Source: Novipirellula galeiformis (GTDB taxonomy: Bacteria; Planctomycetota; Planctomycetia; Pirellulales; Pirellulaceae). From it: a stretch of DNA of 64,000 nt. A program made the position numbers and the translations under genes. The notes beneath the pieces were generated by a model. It was not told the DNA's origin and ran no database searches. It saw only the letters and a program-made list of their open reading frames with translations. The stretch spans positions 496,001-560,000 of the forward strand of contig NZ_SJPT01000005.1 in NCBI RefSeq assembly GCF_007860095.1, written 5' to 3'. Each line of letters begins with the position of its first letter. Position 1 is the stretch's first letter. Below, one piece after another: positions 1-24,792 of the stretch.

Positions 1-1938
1 AGCGGCGAGCCCCACGCCAATCCAGGTCAAGATCAACAGTGTGCCGGGCATCGCCATGCTCAGTCGAATCAGCGGCGTAACCAGATGCTTCAAACCACGA
101 AGCAAGAAACCGTCGCCTTCATGATGGGTCGCACCGGATTGAGGCAGCAGGTAATACGACAGCACGGGAGTGACCGTCATCGACACCACGAATGAAGCCA
201 GGATCGAAACGATATAGGCAAACCCCAGCGGTGTGAACAAGCGACCTTCGACGCCGGAGAGGGCAAACAGCGGCATAAACGACAGGATCACGACGGCGGT
301 GCCGAACACAATCGAGCTACGAATTTCTTTGCTCGCCTCGAAGACCACGACGATGGATGGCTTCTGCGTTTCGCTTGGCAAAGCGTTGTTCTGTTTCAAT
401 CGACGAAAGATATTTTCGACATCAACGATCGCGTCATCGACCAACTCACCCATCGCAACGGCGATGCCGCCAAGCGTCATCACGTTGATCGACAACTCGC
501 TGCCGCTGAGCATCCCGATCACGCGAAACACTAGCGTCGTGAGCACTAGCGACAAGGGAATGGCGGTTAGTGTGATAAAGGTCGTACGGAAATTCAGCAA
601 AAACAAAAACAGCACGATGATGACCAAGACGGCGCCGATAACGAGGGCTTCGGCGACGTTGAAGATGCCCCGATCAATGAAGTTCTTCAAGCGAAACAGT
701 TCACTATTGACGACGATGTCCGCCGGCAACGACGCTTCGACTTCCGCAAACGCCTGCGCAACATCGTCGGTCAGTTTTCGAGTATCGATGTGCGGTTGTT
801 TTACGGTGGTAAAGACAATTCCCGGACGACCATCGACGCTGCCGTCGCCCCGTTTGAATTGAGGCCCTTCGGTGACGCGAGCGACCTGTTCGAGCAAAAC
901 AGAGCGTTTGGGATGATTACCCACCGGAACCTTCTTCAGGTCTTCGATGACCACTCGCGACTGAGGCCCCAATCGCCCGAGGATGCGAATGGGACGCTCG
1001 GTTTCGCCTGTCACGGCAAATCCACCACTCGTGTTGATATTACTGGCCCGCAGCGCCCGTTCGACATCTTGGACGGTGACGTCGTATTCGAGCAGCGCGG
1101 TTGGATCGATCAGGATCTGGTATTGTTTGCGGTCGCCGCCAAGCATGAATACTTCCGCCACGCCGGTGACTTTCAATAGTCGAGGACGGACAATCCAATC
1201 GGCGACGGTGCGAAGTTCAAGTTGCTGTTTGGCTTCGCTGAAAAAATTCGCTTCGTGGGTACTGCCGTTGATCAGAACCGTGGCCGTTCCCAGCGGCCCC
1301 GATTGCAAGCCCGAGCCAGTATTCAGATCGTCATTCCAATGCAGGTGGGTTGGTTCCAACTTAGTCCAGGTCGACAGATCATGACGGTCCTCCGGTTGCC
1401 AAATTTGAATCTGCGGTTTGCCGTCAGCTCCCACCAGGATCTCGGCCATCATCTCGGTATTGCCGACCTGAGCTAGTCGTCCGCCGCCGGGGCCATCCTG
1501 ACGATAAATACCGGCGACGACGATTTGCCCCATGATCGACGATGGAGGGGTCATTTGAGGGCGAATGCCAACGGGCAGAATGCCTTCGAGTGTGGCCAAT
1601 CGCTCTTGCACCGTTTGCCGGGCCGCGCGAATTTCGGTCGACCAATCAAACTCGATATAGATGACGTTCAGCCCCGCAGTCGACTGGCTGCGGACCGCTT
1701 GCACTCCGTTGGCCCCCAACAGCGCGATTTCAATGGGCTGAGTCACCAGCGTTTCAACTTCTTCGGTCGCCAAGCCGGGCGCTTCGGTGATGATAACCAC
1801 GCGAGGTCGGTCGAGGTCAGGAAAAACGTCAATCGACATTTGTGTGGCAAGGTACGAACCATACACCAACACCGCCAAACTGATCACGACGATCAGCATC
1901 CGATAGCGAAGCGAAAACTTGATAATTGAATCTAACAT
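1..1938 (-). CDS. Heavy-metal efflux RND pump (CzcA/CusA family), 3' end cut by window edge
   Basis: This is the N-terminal 646 codons of an inner-membrane proton-driven RND pump; the C-terminal half lies outside the window. The protein opens with MLDSIIKFSLRYRMLIVV, one membrane helix, then a periplasmic porter domain. A helix around residues 495-506 reads AMGELVDDAIVD, the acidic proton-relay helix of heavy-metal RND pumps. Compared with CzcA, an extra stretch of about 80 residues sits in the porter domain near residues 155-232. The ATG at 1938 lies inside a degenerate heptamer repeat and has no clear Shine-Dalgarno site. It is the last gene of the minus-strand efflux series, so adaptor 2379-3806 is its likely partner. 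The metal is not deducible. Confidence 0.93.
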   Translation of the reverse strand, partial: MLDSIIKFSLRYRMLIVVISLAVLVYGSYLATQMSIDVFPDLDRPRVVIITEAPGLATEEVETLVTQPIEIALLGANGVQAVRSQSTAGLNVIYIEFDWSTEIRAARQTVQERLATLEGILPVGIRPQMTPPSSIMGQIVVAGIYRQDGPGGGRLAQVGNTEMMAEILVGADGKPQIQIWQPEDRHDLSTWTKLEPTHLHWNDDLNTGSGLQSGPLGTATVLINGSTHEANFFSEAKQQLELRTVADWIVRPRLLKVTGVAEVFMLGGDRKQYQILIDPTALLEYDVTVQDVERALRASNINTSGGFAVTGETERPIRILGRLGPQSRVVIEDLKKVPVGNHPKRSVLLEQVARVTEGPQFKRGDGSVDGRPGIVFTTVKQPHIDTRKLTDDVAQAFAEVEASLPADIVVNSELFRLKNFIDRGIFNVAEALVIGAVLVIIVLFLFLLNFRTTFITLTAIPLSLVLTTLVFRVIGMLSGSELSINVMTLGGIAVAMGELVDDAIVDVENIFRRLKQNNALPSETQKPSIVVVFEASKEIRSSIVFGTAVVILSFMPLFALSGVEGRLFTPLGFAYIVSILASFVVSMTVTPVLSYYLLPQSGATHHEGDGFLLRGLKHLVTPLIRLSMAMPGTLLILTWIGVGLAA

Positions 1939-1949
1939 TGAAGATCGTC

Positions 1950-1970
1950 GATTGAAGATTGAAGATTGCT
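1950..1970. repeat. Heptamer array, left arm of an inverted pair
   Basis: The plus strand has two perfect GATTGAA units (1950-1956, 1957-1963) followed by a degraded GATTGCT. On the coding (minus) strand this reads as the pyrimidine form TTCAATC. It lies after the four-helix-bundle gene and 11 nt before the RND pump start. The next units toward the ATG are GACGATC and TTCAATG, so the start codon falls within the decayed array. It is the inverse complement of the array at 2353-2380. Confidence 0.9.
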
Positions 1971-1990
1971 GAACATTGAATCGCCGACCC

Positions 1991-2341
1991 TCATTCACCT
2001 TTGGCTGTTTTTCGGGATGCGACCATGATTGCCGTGATTTGATTCGCTTCGTCGAGTAGTGCTTCGACTTTCTCCTTTGGTAAAAGGTCGCCTTCAATAA
2101 TGAGTTCGAGCCAGTAGCAACATTCGTCTGCTTCCTCGATGACGATGCTAAGCTTTGAGACGAACTCAGCTCTCGAACGCCCGCGACACGCGGCTCGATA
2201 GTTCGCCCCAACAGATGTCGCACTCCGGATCAATTGATTGCCGATGGGACGCCCGACTGCATCTTTCGGCAAAGCACCGACGAGCTTCATCACCCTCAGT
2301 GCAAGCTGCTTTGTCCTCTTCTTCAATTCCGAATCATTCAT
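1991..2341 (-). CDS. Four-helix-bundle protein, S23/IVS (Avd-like) family
   Basis: This 116-residue, wholly helical protein matches the four-helix-bundle family first known from ORFs in 23S rRNA intervening sequences and related to the Avd accessory protein of diversity-generating retroelements. Family hallmarks are IGNQLIRSATSVGANYRAA around residues 53-71 and the following SRAEFVSKLSIVIEEADEC stretch. The ATG has a GGAA motif 7-8 nt upstream. The gene sits between an RND adaptor and its pump, where it has no obvious role in metal efflux, and it is framed by inverted heptamer arrays at 2353-2380 and 1950-1970. No reverse transcriptase or rRNA is present in the window. Its molecular function here is unknown; nucleic-acid binding is the best inference from the family. 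Confidence 0.88.
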   Translation of the reverse strand: MNDSELKKRTKQLALRVMKLVGALPKDAVGRPIGNQLIRSATSVGANYRAACRGRSRAEFVSKLSIVIEEADECCYWLELIIEGDLLPKEKVEALLDEANQITAIMVASRKTAKGE

Positions 2342-2352
2342 GTCTGGTTCCT

Positions 2353-2380
2353 TTCAATCTTCAATCTTCAATCTTCAATC
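2353..2380. repeat. Heptamer array (TTCAATC x4), right arm of inverted pair
   Basis: Four perfect TTCAATC units lie at 2353-2359, 2360-2366, 2367-2373 and 2374-2380. On the coding strand they read as purine-rich GATTGAA. The last unit overlaps the TGA stop of the adaptor gene by two bases, and the array fills most of the 37-nt gap before the four-helix-bundle gene. It can pair with the 1950-1970 array over about 19 nt in a transcript. Confidence 0.95.
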
Positions 2381-3806
2381 AATGTGCCGCGTGCACCGTA
2401 CCGTCAGCATGCACATGCACACCGGGAGCTTTTCCGCTAGCCGACTGTGACTTGAGCACCCGATTAAGCGAAGCAGCGGAACTCTGGGCCAGATAGCTAC
2501 CCGGTGAAATGCTGCCGTCATTGGCGATCACGATTGCAAGACGATCTTCGTGCAGTACATGGACGGGCAGTTGCTTGAACAAATCGCCGTTCTGGCGAAA
2601 CACATACGCCTCGGGTCCTTCTCGCACCACCGCTTCAGCAGGCAACACAAAGACGTTTTCAAATTGCTCGACCGGAACTCGAATCCGTGCCCGTTGGCCT
2701 GGTCGAAAACGCCACACCAGAAATGTGTTCCCCAATTTTTCATAGGCATGCGACTGATTCGAAAGCGGCACGAAGAAATCGAACGTGCGGCTGTCGGGAT
2801 CGATCGTATTGGAGAGATGTCGAATCACGAACGTTTGCTCTACCACGGGCCAATCTGCCGTGTTGACTTCGGCAAACTCAATCTCGACCGCACGATTCGC
2901 CTCGGCCGCCTGCTCTAGAAACGACGCCTCGCGTTTGAACGCATGACCGATCACGTACAACGATTGATGATTGGATAGTTTGGCCAGCAATTGGCCGGCC
3001 TGGACCTGCTGGCCCATCTCCACGCTCAACTCTTGAACTTCATAAGCCACGTCGTTGGGCGAGACCGAATCAGTGACCAAACTGGCTTGGCGAACTGCGT
3101 TTCCATGACCATCCTCAAGCGACGTTTGAGGCATCAACGGCGGCGCCGTAACTTCGATTGTCGAAACAAACTCACCTTGCTGTTGCACTTGGTCGATCTG
3201 ATCGGGAAGCAATCCACGGGTCAACAAATCTTGACGCGAGGATTGAATGACCGCTTGCTGGCGAGTCAAGTTAGCCCGCAGCTCAATCATCTTGCCTTGA
3301 GAAATCGCTCCCACCGAGGCGGCACTCGACAACCGGTCTAATTCCGCTTGAACGATGAGTGTTTCTTGATTGGCCTTGAACAACTGCGTCTGCGTGTTCT
3401 GCAAGTACTCGCTGAACAATCGTAACGTGAATAGCGAGTCGCCGGGACGCATGGTGTCACCGGGAAAGGCGTGGATCGCGGTAACGATACCGACCGCGGG
3501 CGAGGTGACACCGCGGTCGGACACGCCAGGACGATCAGCAACGACACCTGGAATCGTGACCGATCGCCAGTACGTCTGTGGCCGCGCGGGCTTGGATACC
3601 AAGCCAAGGTTCCTCCTCGCTTGGCCACTGATTTCGAGCACAGTTTGCTTCTCGTCGGACTTGCCCGATGGGCTAGCCGTCGGCGTTTCAACCGCTTCGT
3701 GGCTGCCCCATAATTCGGCACGAAAGAACCAGATCGCCGCGACGACGACGATGATGATTGCGGGCCCAAGCAAAGCGTTTAAGAGTGATTTCAAAGGTTT
3801 CTTCAT
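2379..3806 (-). CDS. RND efflux periplasmic adaptor (HlyD/CusB-type membrane fusion protein)
   Basis: The 475-residue product is anchored by an N-terminal helix (residues about 10-30, LLGPAIIIVVVAAIWFFR) and has the lipoyl/barrel-sandwich, helical hairpin and beta-barrel layout of membrane fusion proteins that link an RND pump to an outer-membrane channel. The C-terminus carries a His-rich tail (GVHVHADGTVHAAH), compatible with metal binding. I chose MKKPLK at 3806; the frame is open to 3950, but that segment is Arg/Cys-rich and unlike a signal. Its stop overlaps a heptamer array, with the four-helix-bundle gene and RND pump downstream. Substrate is inferred from context. Confidence 0.9.
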   Translation of the reverse strand: MKKPLKSLLNALLGPAIIIVVVAAIWFFRAELWGSHEAVETPTASPSGKSDEKQTVLEISGQARRNLGLVSKPARPQTYWRSVTIPGVVADRPGVSDRGVTSPAVGIVTAIHAFPGDTMRPGDSLFTLRLFSEYLQNTQTQLFKANQETLIVQAELDRLSSAASVGAISQGKMIELRANLTRQQAVIQSSRQDLLTRGLLPDQIDQVQQQGEFVSTIEVTAPPLMPQTSLEDGHGNAVRQASLVTDSVSPNDVAYEVQELSVEMGQQVQAGQLLAKLSNHQSLYVIGHAFKREASFLEQAAEANRAVEIEFAEVNTADWPVVEQTFVIRHLSNTIDPDSRTFDFFVPLSNQSHAYEKLGNTFLVWRFRPGQRARIRVPVEQFENVFVLPAEAVVREGPEAYVFRQNGDLFKQLPVHVLHEDRLAIVIANDGSISPGSYLAQSSAASLNRVLKSQSASGKAPGVHVHADGTVHAAH

Positions 3807-3932
3807 CGGTTCATTCTCGACAAATTCGCAGCGGGCAACACCGACCGCGCAGCCGTAGGTGCAAGGGTAAAACAGGCGGGAGCAAGCCAAACGCAAGCGG
3901 CAAAATCTCAGCAGCTTGATTTTCATACAGGG

Positions 3933-3981
3933 CCGGTTCCTACCGACCAAGCCTTCCGAGCGAATCGCCGGCGGGAACCGG
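3933..3981. repeat. Hairpin-forming inverted repeat (REP-like)
   Basis: CCGGTTCC at 3933-3940 is matched by GGAACCGG at 3974-3981, with further imperfect pairing outside. It lies in the 236-nt gap between the His-rich gene and the adaptor. No T-run follows, so it is either a REP-like element or an mRNA processing structure rather than a classical terminator. Confidence 0.55.
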
Positions 3982-15242: not shown

Positions 15243-15277
15243 AGAAAGGTGTGAAAGACAGAGAGGGGGAGTGGGGG

Positions 15278-15325
15278 AGACAAGGAGACAAGGAGACAAG
15301 GAGAGTGGGAGAGTGGGAGAGTGGG
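15278..15325. repeat. Octamer array, AGACAAGG x3 then AGAGTGGG x3
   Basis: Six octamers lie in perfect register: AGACAAGG at 15278-15285, 15286-15293 and 15294-15301, then AGAGTGGG at 15302-15309, 15310-15317 and 15318-15325. The switch occurs as a block. The strand is purine-rich in the direction of transcription. Only 12 nt separate it from the following pyrimidine heptamer array, so the transcript can fold back, with GGGAGT pairing to ACTCC units. Confidence 0.97.
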
Positions 15326-15337
15326 AGTAAGAAGACA

Positions 15338-15461
15338 ACTCCTCACTCCTCACTCCTCACTCCTCACTCCTCACTCCTCACTCCTCACTCCTCACTCCTC
15401 ACTCCTCACTCCTCACTCCTCACTCCTCACTCCTCACTCCCAATCTTCAATCTTCAATCTT
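15338..15461. repeat. Heptamer arrays, ACTCCTC x14.7 then CAATCTT x3
   Basis: ACTCCTC repeats without error from 15338 to 15440 and is followed directly by three CAATCTT units (15441-15461). ATG of the adaptor gene follows four bases later at 15466, so no normal Shine-Dalgarno site exists. The CAATCTT unit is the same heptamer found around the four-helix-bundle gene at 1950-2380. Its register complement AGATTGA is two substitutions from GGAGTGA, with GGATTGA (17751-17813) as the intermediate. Confidence 0.97.
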
Positions 15462-15465
15462 CCCA

Positions 15466-17750: not shown

Positions 17751-17813
17751 TCAATCCTCAATCCTCAATCCTCAATCCTCAATCCTCAATCCTCAATCCT
17801 CAATCCTCAATCC
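17751..17813. repeat. Heptamer array TCAATCC x9 between ATPase and permease
   Basis: Nine perfect TCAATCC units run from 17751 to 17813. They begin 3 nt after the ATPase stop and end one base before the permease ATG at 17815, so the repeat is essentially the entire intergenic region. No Shine-Dalgarno motif remains. The tract contains no stop in the permease frame. Confidence 0.98.
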
Positions 17814-24328: not shown

Positions 24329-24449
24329 CGGACATCGCATTTTGCCGAGGCCAACGCTGCGACCTCCAACGGACTGGCGGTCGCAAAATGGATCCCCCCC
24401 CCAGCCAAGCTGATCAGCTGCCGCAATCTTTCGAGCAACGCATCCAATC

Positions 24450-24569
24450 AATCACCCAATCACCCAATCACCCAATCACCCAATCACCCAATCACCCAAT
24501 CACCCAATCACCCAATCACCCTGTCACCCTGTCACCCTGTCGCCCTGTCGCCCTGTCGCCCAATCGCCC
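24450..24569. repeat. Octamer array of 15 units with block-wise variants
   Basis: Fifteen octamers follow in register: AATCACCC x9 (24450-24521), TGTCACCC x2, TGTCGCCC x3, and AATCGCCC (24562-24569). The changes are grouped, not scattered, which points to serial local duplication of mutated units. On the purine strand the units share GGN-GA. It lies about 220 nt before the ATG of the Tat-exported oxidoreductase, with the pyrimidine strand in the sense direction. Confidence 0.97.
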
Positions 24570-24792
24570 TGCAAAGTGAAACGCAAAGAAGCAAACGAGC
24601 AACCGGCGGACCGACCCTGATTGCCTGCCTCCCCCACCTCGTTGCCCCTACTTGTTATTCCCGAGGCCGTGTTCGTCCGCGAAAGGTCGAATCGCGGTGG
24701 ACAACCGGTTACCATGGGGGAGGGGCACAATTCAGTGCTACAACAAGCTCTCACCAATCGCCCAACCTTTCGCTGCTCAAGAGGACAACGAG

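Follow-up and report, generated by a model that had tools for sequence, protein, structure and literature searches.

The closest described relatives of the element considered here are the intervening sequences (IVS) of 23S rRNA genes. With these we compare a cassette from a 64,000-nucleotide stretch of the Novipirellula galeiformis genome (contig NZ_SJPT01000005.1, positions 496,001 to 560,000; hereafter the window), in which a gene for an S23-family protein lies between two inverse arrays of seven-letter units at the junction of an efflux adaptor gene and an RND pump gene. The IVS of PMC4990558 is about 430 nt long, carries an S23 open reading frame (ORF) and ends in terminal inverted repeats forming a 28-bp stem that is cleaved by RNase III. 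Heptameric repeats, two or three by strain, stand beside its S23 start codon, and the paper calls the ORF expendable and probably not expressed. The window cassette shares the S23 ORF, the closing inverted repeats and the heptamers near the S23 start, but it resides between protein-coding genes and not within a 23S rRNA gene.

Tandem heptamers have also been described largely between genes and near start or stop codons, in Xanthomonas and Nostoc (PMC4692102) and in Beggiatoaceae (PMC4679880), and near start or stop codons in Geobacter (PMC2700814). One Xanthomonas strain holds 70 paired inverse cases (PMC4692102), and for Beggiatoaceae horizontal transmission was suggested, the mechanism not being evident (PMC4679880). 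These repeats resemble the cassette arms in being tandem heptamers, but in the available parts of these papers no gene family is tied to them; the terms “s23” and “four helix” are absent from the texts of PMC4692102 and PMC4679880, the Geobacter text PMC2700814 not having been searched for them. Our literature search returned nothing linking S23 genes with intergenic heptamer arrays, and since it misses most subscription papers the priority of this link is uncertain.

Two further kinds of element invite comparison. Repetitive extragenic palindromic (REP) sequences are short intergenic inverted repeats that occur with the RAYT transposase, and gene-less copies exist. The S23 cassettes likewise combine short intergenic inverted repeats, an associated small gene and gene-less copies, but S23 has no transposase match and the cassette ends are expandable, locus-specific arrays rather than fixed palindromes. 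Mobile introns and inteins are homing elements that reside inside genes and are sporadically present at the same site, with precise empty sites. The cassettes share the sporadic same-site presence in related species, the precise empty sites and a spread apart from their flanks; unlike introns and inteins they lie between genes, and no endonuclease was found by family profile search.

Inverse arms around S23 genes

An initial annotation made from the window alone had described an S23-type four-helix gene preceded, in transcript sense, by four GATTGAA units, followed by an inverse TTCAATC array and fitted exactly into a gene junction. The observation of an S23 gene between inverted heptamer arrays is confirmed as real (Table 1). 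The protein exceeds both curated family cut-offs (PF05635, 66.9 bits against 33.8; TIGR02436, 89.1 bits against 24), the four units before the gene are perfect, and the sequence read directly shows that the arms overlap, at their outer ends, the stop codon of the adaptor and the start codon of the pump. The downstream array proved regular in part only (76% matches), although 19 nt of it, 1950–1968, are a perfect inverse of 2362–2380, within a longer inverted pair of 27 nt at 89%. Every 17-nt perfect inverted word pair with 100–700 nt spacing in the window belongs to this arm pair alone. The flank-complementarity score of the gene is 21 with 190-nt flanks; among control ORFs in other S23 loci (150-nt flanks), 5 of 389 score at least 20. 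The neighbouring adaptor matches HlyD-type families above the Pfam cut-offs and RND_mfp under the NCBIfam cut-off.

Table 1. Positions of the S23 cassette, its neighbours and the places with arrays alone in the window
Feature	Position	Strand	Remark
S23 / 23S rRNA-intervening-sequence protein gene (four helix bundle protein), 116 aa	1991..2341	-	family profile matches
5' arm (transcript sense), four perfect GATTGAA units, overlapping adaptor stop codon	2353..2380	-	
3' arm (transcript sense), inverse, partly degenerate heptamer array, into pump start codon	1937..1968	-	
HlyD/RND-type efflux adaptor, upstream neighbour, stop codon 2379–2381	2379..3950	-	
RND pump, downstream neighbour, cut by window edge, start codon 1936–1938	1..1938	-	ACR_tran match
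Array-only junction: G-rich array, then directly C-rich heptamers before start codon, no S23 between	15261..15462	+	inverse relation by eye
Array-only: nine TCAATCC units immediately ahead of a permease start codon, without S23 gene	17751..17813	+	
Array-only: octamers inside mechanical ORF of doubtful coding value	24449..24571		

S23 is the only recognised gene of the window cassette; its ORF matches four-helix and hypothetical families only, and family profile search recognised no transposase or endonuclease. Ratios of nonsynonymous to synonymous substitution (dN/dS) of 0.02–0.08 in five of the six pairs tested show purifying selection on the S23 protein, in contrast to the IVS ORF that is called expendable in PMC4990558.

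The finding is broader than the initial annotation had stated. A scan covering 84,980 species genomes confirmed 586 S23 loci, of which the best 80 were kept and 78 scored (L085 and L125 were left out, the flank being too short); the taxa named in their titles include Acidobacteria, Bacteroidales, Verrucomicrobia, Chloroflexi, Clostridia, several Proteobacteria classes and an archaeon. With paired arms defined by a flank-complementarity score of at least 16, inverse-matching flanks surround 56 of these 78 S23 genes against 11 of 389 control ORFs of the same loci (Fisher p = 7e-43), one of the 11 being itself a second S23 gene, and against 4 of 156 when each flank was matched with a wrong partner (p = 8e-31). 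The source genome has 12 S23 matches, 11 of them with inverse flanks at this threshold. Paired flanks were found at 17 of 26 loci of the family set (29 less L029, L033 and L037) and at 21 of 30 “named” loci, which are not independent, being drawn from genomes of the cross-phylum set and overlapping it; swapped flanks in the own, family and named sets reached the threshold in 4 of 204 cases. Inverted arrays around other S23 genes, as the initial interpretation requires, are thus widespread.

For a tally of array units the named set was excluded, leaving 116 loci (78 cross-phylum, 12 own, 26 family), 84 with paired arms and 70 with a clear array. The period is 7 in 58 of the clear arrays, 8 in seven and 6 in five, and among the paired-arm loci 71 have a G-rich 5' arm, 11 a C-rich one and two a balanced one; this polarity, being symmetric under reversal, is uninformative on the S23 strand. 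Even within the source genome the units differ by locus, by eye GATTGAA in the window and elsewhere GTGAGGA, an ACTCAAG-like unit and the six-letter TACTCG. Both neighbours run in the direction of the S23 gene at 34 of 50 loci against 131 of 271 controls (p = 0.013), a difference given little weight because the gene caller was crude.

Within 200 bp of S23 the density of arrays of period 6–8 is 224 per 100 kb, and at 0.2–6.5 kb it is 7.6–11.1 per 100 kb, an enrichment of about 20- to 30-fold beside the gene. Polymerase slippage in intergenic DNA could give heptamer arrays next to what would then be an ordinary accessory gene; array copy number does vary among congeners (4, 6 and about 1 units), and heptamer arrays are also present without S23. 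Slippage, however, does not produce inverse copies on two sides, and the locus-specific pairing (56 of 78 against 4 of 156 swapped) together with the enrichment beside S23 already contradicts coincidence of this kind, which we regard as scarcely credible.

The arms can expand on one side alone, as at L077 (genome G114), where the 3' arm has grown to about 20 heptamers of CCTCCAA/TCTCCAA type and the 5' arm is short. A matrix of arm-by-arm scores for the six orthologous cassettes was uninformative on concerted evolution, because GATTG-like units are common to all six and two of the ORFs extend into the array, and the cross-locus swap comparison takes its place.

Filled and empty junctions

Relatives with adjoining adaptor and pump genes, anticipated for a cassette that had been inserted, do exist. 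In a series of 30 homologous family loci (49–100% identity, the loci listed among 98 genomes with any match), 19 have a tight gap of 10–21 nt between adaptor stop and pump start, six hold an S23 cassette of 417–619 nt, one holds a C-rich heptamer array only (49 nt) and the remaining four have other gaps of 76–168 nt. On the adaptor–pump tree the filled loci occupy four separate places among unfilled ones, so that the sporadic same-site presence and precise empty sites of homing elements are found here as well. In 241 family genomes the context was read of 12 full-length S23 genes with at least 65% identity to that of the window (itself included): seven genera supply the 11 that lie at the adaptor–pump junction, and the twelfth occupies a paralogous one. 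Truncated S23 genes stand at the adaptor–pump junction in two further genomes. More distant S23 loci (14 read, 40–61% identity) include nine at four other junction types, namely after brxB (L285, L287), pglZ–brxL (L288, L293), cysD–cysN (L286, L289) and sufC–sufB (L294, L299, and L292 after a sufC-like ORF, by eye), and five at other places (L290, L291, L295, L297, L300). Cassettes also occur at groES–groEL, guaB–guaA and PDH E1beta–E2, and at pglZ–brxL in a gammaproteobacterium.

A second series, at the rfbB–rfbD junction of the Vreelandella/Halomonas group, was readable at 29 of 30 loci (L261, with no rfbB adjacent, was left out). S23 with heptamer arms is present at four and a heptamer array only at two; the gap is 2–14 nt at another four, and 19 have other inserts or gaps.

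Movement is indicated within the source genome and between species. L005, L006 and L009, on two contigs, share 551–668 bp at 88–92% identity with no other long match, and the site of L009, filled in the source genome, is about 525–550 bp shorter in both congeners. L324 (genome G265) is a second S23 gene, 79% identical to that of the window, at a paralogous adaptor–pump junction whose adaptor and pump are 32% and 52% identical to their counterparts; it is oriented against its operon, inverse arms still flanking it. Between the window S23 (source genome G000) and that of the congener G001, fourfold-site identity is 96% (n = 54), against 59% for the adaptor (n = 150) and 67% for the pump (n = 159), an excess with p = 3e-8 over the adaptor and p = 4e-6 over the pump, and the alignment is 97–100% identical across the S23 gene and the 3' arm. 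This discrepancy shows that the window cassette was exchanged between species recently, over and above what the divergence of the flanking genes accounts for. The strongest pair at the rfbB–rfbD junction, L247–L248, has fourfold identities of 0.84 for S23, 0.54 for rfbB and 0.61 for rfbD. Of the initial suggestion, a mobile or RNA-processed element with ends made of short tandem arrays, the mobile part is thus supported by presence and absence among congeners (L009), a dispersed multicopy family, a reversed copy (L324) and discordant divergence (G000–G001), and we consider that the S23 gene with its arms is very probably a mobile junction cassette.

Elsewhere in the source genome, L001, L002 and L004 (contig C2, about 59–63 kb) consist of S23, its arrays and a neighbouring stretch as three tandem repeats about 1 kb apart.

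The inverted ends, array-only junctions, dispersed copies and the gene reversed between its arms in L324 would also suit a DNA-level element like a miniature inverted-repeat transposable element, for which the arrays would serve as terminal repeats, an unlinked transposase or recombinase would supply mobility in trans, and S23 would ride as a passenger. Since the units are locus-specific, differing between loci while the arms of one locus match (swapped 4 of 156), there would be no fixed end for one enzyme to recognise. A passenger gene also sits poorly with purifying selection on S23, and transposons do not usually reside exactly between a stop and a start codon. We therefore hold this explanation to be unlikely.

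Predicted stem, proposed mechanism and competing explanations

In the predicted fold of the window transcript 33 nucleotides are paired arm to arm, with 33.1 expected pairs, whereas 50 shuffles of the arms gave a mean of 10.8 and a maximum of 28.7; in the six orthologous cassettes the predicted arm-arm paired nucleotides number 28, 38, 27, 10, 39 and 43. The window cassette is therefore predicted to have pairable terminal inverted repeats, as in the closing stem of the 23S rRNA IVS. The structure of the Xanthomonas campestris S23 is described as a homopentamer (PMC4990558), and the solved relatives 2gsc and 2rld have five chains each.

These features suggest how such a cassette might work. Its plan is a short tandem array, the S23 gene and the inverse array, mostly in seven-letter units with the G-rich strand mostly first, and the whole would have entered a gene junction, after the stop codon of the first gene and ahead of the start codon of the second. 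Once transcribed, the arms would form a stem enclosing the S23 reading frame in a loop, as in the 23S rRNA IVS, and the stem could be cut, as by RNase III there, leaving the neighbours expressed and the insertion tolerable; operon and tRNA-array junctions would therefore survive as sites. The S23 protein, one solved relative of which is homopentameric, may bind the arms or the nucleic acid of the cassette and so promote its spread without a transposase or endonuclease of its own. The predicted fold and the analogy with the IVS leave stem-based RNA processing evenly poised, and that S23 itself drives mobility is a tentative proposal that we would sooner doubt than assert. The whole, a mobile junction cassette with stem-based RNA tolerance and S23-promoted spread, is the best explanation we can offer and one that we favour modestly.

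We prefer to think of the operon cassettes, by analogy, as the 23S rRNA intervening sequence in a more general form, housed elsewhere; this is the best reading, and it makes the cassette an IVS-type element with a fair chance of being a class of its own. It is possible, if somewhat short of probable, that S23 cassettes make up a novel class of mobile element, found across phyla, with locus-specific, expandable inverted heptamer ends and without transposase or endonuclease, of which the 23S rRNA IVS would be the rRNA branch and intergenic heptamers the gene-less remnants or satellites. S23 (four helix bundle) genes are common, and their link to paired heptamer arrays joins two hitherto unconnected puzzles, rRNA intervening sequences and intergenic heptamer repeats, in one testable mobile-element question. 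It also provides a natural system for how an insertion enters or leaves an operon junction with both genes unbroken, and how seven-letter arrays are copied while two inverse arms are kept matched.

The predicted arm pairing close to the start codon of the downstream gene, purifying selection on S23 and the residence of one S23 subfamily at one junction in seven genera could also reflect a host regulatory module, S23 and arrays acting as an attenuator or mRNA stability device under selection for operon control. Such a role is, however, hard to match with the 24 of 30 homologous operons that lack the cassette, with one copy carrying a stop and two truncated copies at the same junction, with the unrelated functions of the neighbouring genes at different junctions and with unrelated inserts at the same junction in the Vreelandella/Halomonas group, and we think it quite unlikely.

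Avd of diversity-generating retroelements has been suggested to be homologous to an S23 structure (PMC10053308), which raises the prospect of a retro-element whose Avd-related S23 and a reverse transcriptase acting in trans copy the cassette from RNA into DNA. The S23 of L098 has a weak Avd match (E = 1.5e-4), under the model cut-off; the window S23 has no match to the Avd model at E 1e-3. Ten of the 43 family genomes with S23, one of them rated 99% complete, and 2 of the 17 without it gave no match to the reverse transcriptase domain RVT_1, which disfavours a required reverse transcriptase and distinguishes the cassettes from Avd systems. In the source genome the four RVT_1 matches listed, of five places, are all on contigs other than that of the window, so that neither an Avd model match nor, among the places listed, a linked reverse transcriptase accompanies the window S23. 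Dependence of the cassettes on reverse transcriptase is not supported, and a retro-element is very unlikely.

Several observations weigh against the mobile, stem-tolerated cassette that we favour. Scores below the threshold were obtained for 22 of 78 cross-phylum, 9 of 26 family and 9 of 30 named S23 loci, and few controls fit the short loci of the smaller sets, where those that reach the threshold number 3 of 10 in the own genome, none of 8 in the family set and 1 of 8 in the named set. No target-site duplication was resolved in the alignment of the L009 site. Raised identity between G000 and G001 continues at 87–98% over about 400 nt of the pump side before it drops, so that ordinary homologous recombination could explain this exchange. 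At the window junction a clear S23 excess is seen in 1 of 55 pairs, most being too diverged, and at rfbB–rfbD in only 3 of 6. Two same-site pairs have no excess: the S23 identity of L110/L114 (0.84) lies below both flanks (0.90, 0.91) and that of L095/L104 (0.96) between them (0.98, 0.89). Together with the single case among 55 they mean that exchange may be ordinary recombination and not element drive.

Other points concern the stem and the protein. Predicted arm pairing is weak in L067 (10 nt, 19.7 expected pairs), and one of the 50 shuffles reached 28.7 expected pairs, against 28.5–31.0 for two of the true cassettes. At 8 of 11 distinct tRNA-flanked loci (30 scanned) S23 is antisense to the adjoining tRNA genes, and it is antisense to the operon in L324; excision from a sense mRNA therefore cannot always explain S23 expression. 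The most recent pair, L013–L015, has a dN/dS of 0.76, with very few changes, and the S23 copy of G002 has an in-frame stop, which with the low dN/dS elsewhere suggests a protein useful to element or host yet losable.

The antisense tRNA-flanked genes are L001, L007, L017, L019, L020 (the same gene as L036), L030, L034 and L038, and those on the same strand L035, L045 and L049. They belong mostly to one subfamily (KLRAFELAD), and several lie inside long tRNA arrays.

Array-only places and other small inserts

Three places in the window, within 10 kb, hold arrays and no S23 gene (Table 1). The array at the permease junction has no counterpart at the same junction in either of two congeners. Across 400 kb (20 regions from 14 S23-bearing genomes, none picked at S23) ten heptamer arrays occur without S23; in sampled regions the comparison is none in 341 kb from S23-free family genomes against one in 400 kb from S23-rich ones, counts too small to bear on a link.

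At the rfbB–rfbD junction of L247, L248, L255 and L274 the reading frame of RfbD takes in the downstream heptamer arm, which lengthens the protein at its N terminus, so that a host protein has absorbed a heptamer array. L249, L253, L257 and L258 carry at the same junction another small gene between CCACGGA...TCCGTGG inverted ends, which in L258 encodes a GxxExxY protein (TIGR04256), and further loci have, by eye, an ORF resembling a phosphoribosyltransferase or a pair of genes with different repeats. This junction seems generally to receive small inserts that are bounded by repeats.

Two control ORFs with inverse flanks, L133:5252–5539 and L154:7675–8118, look by eye like nucleases of GIY-YIG and DUF559 type, the former having no match in a profile search of NCBIfam; they hint at further small-gene cassettes bounded by repeats.

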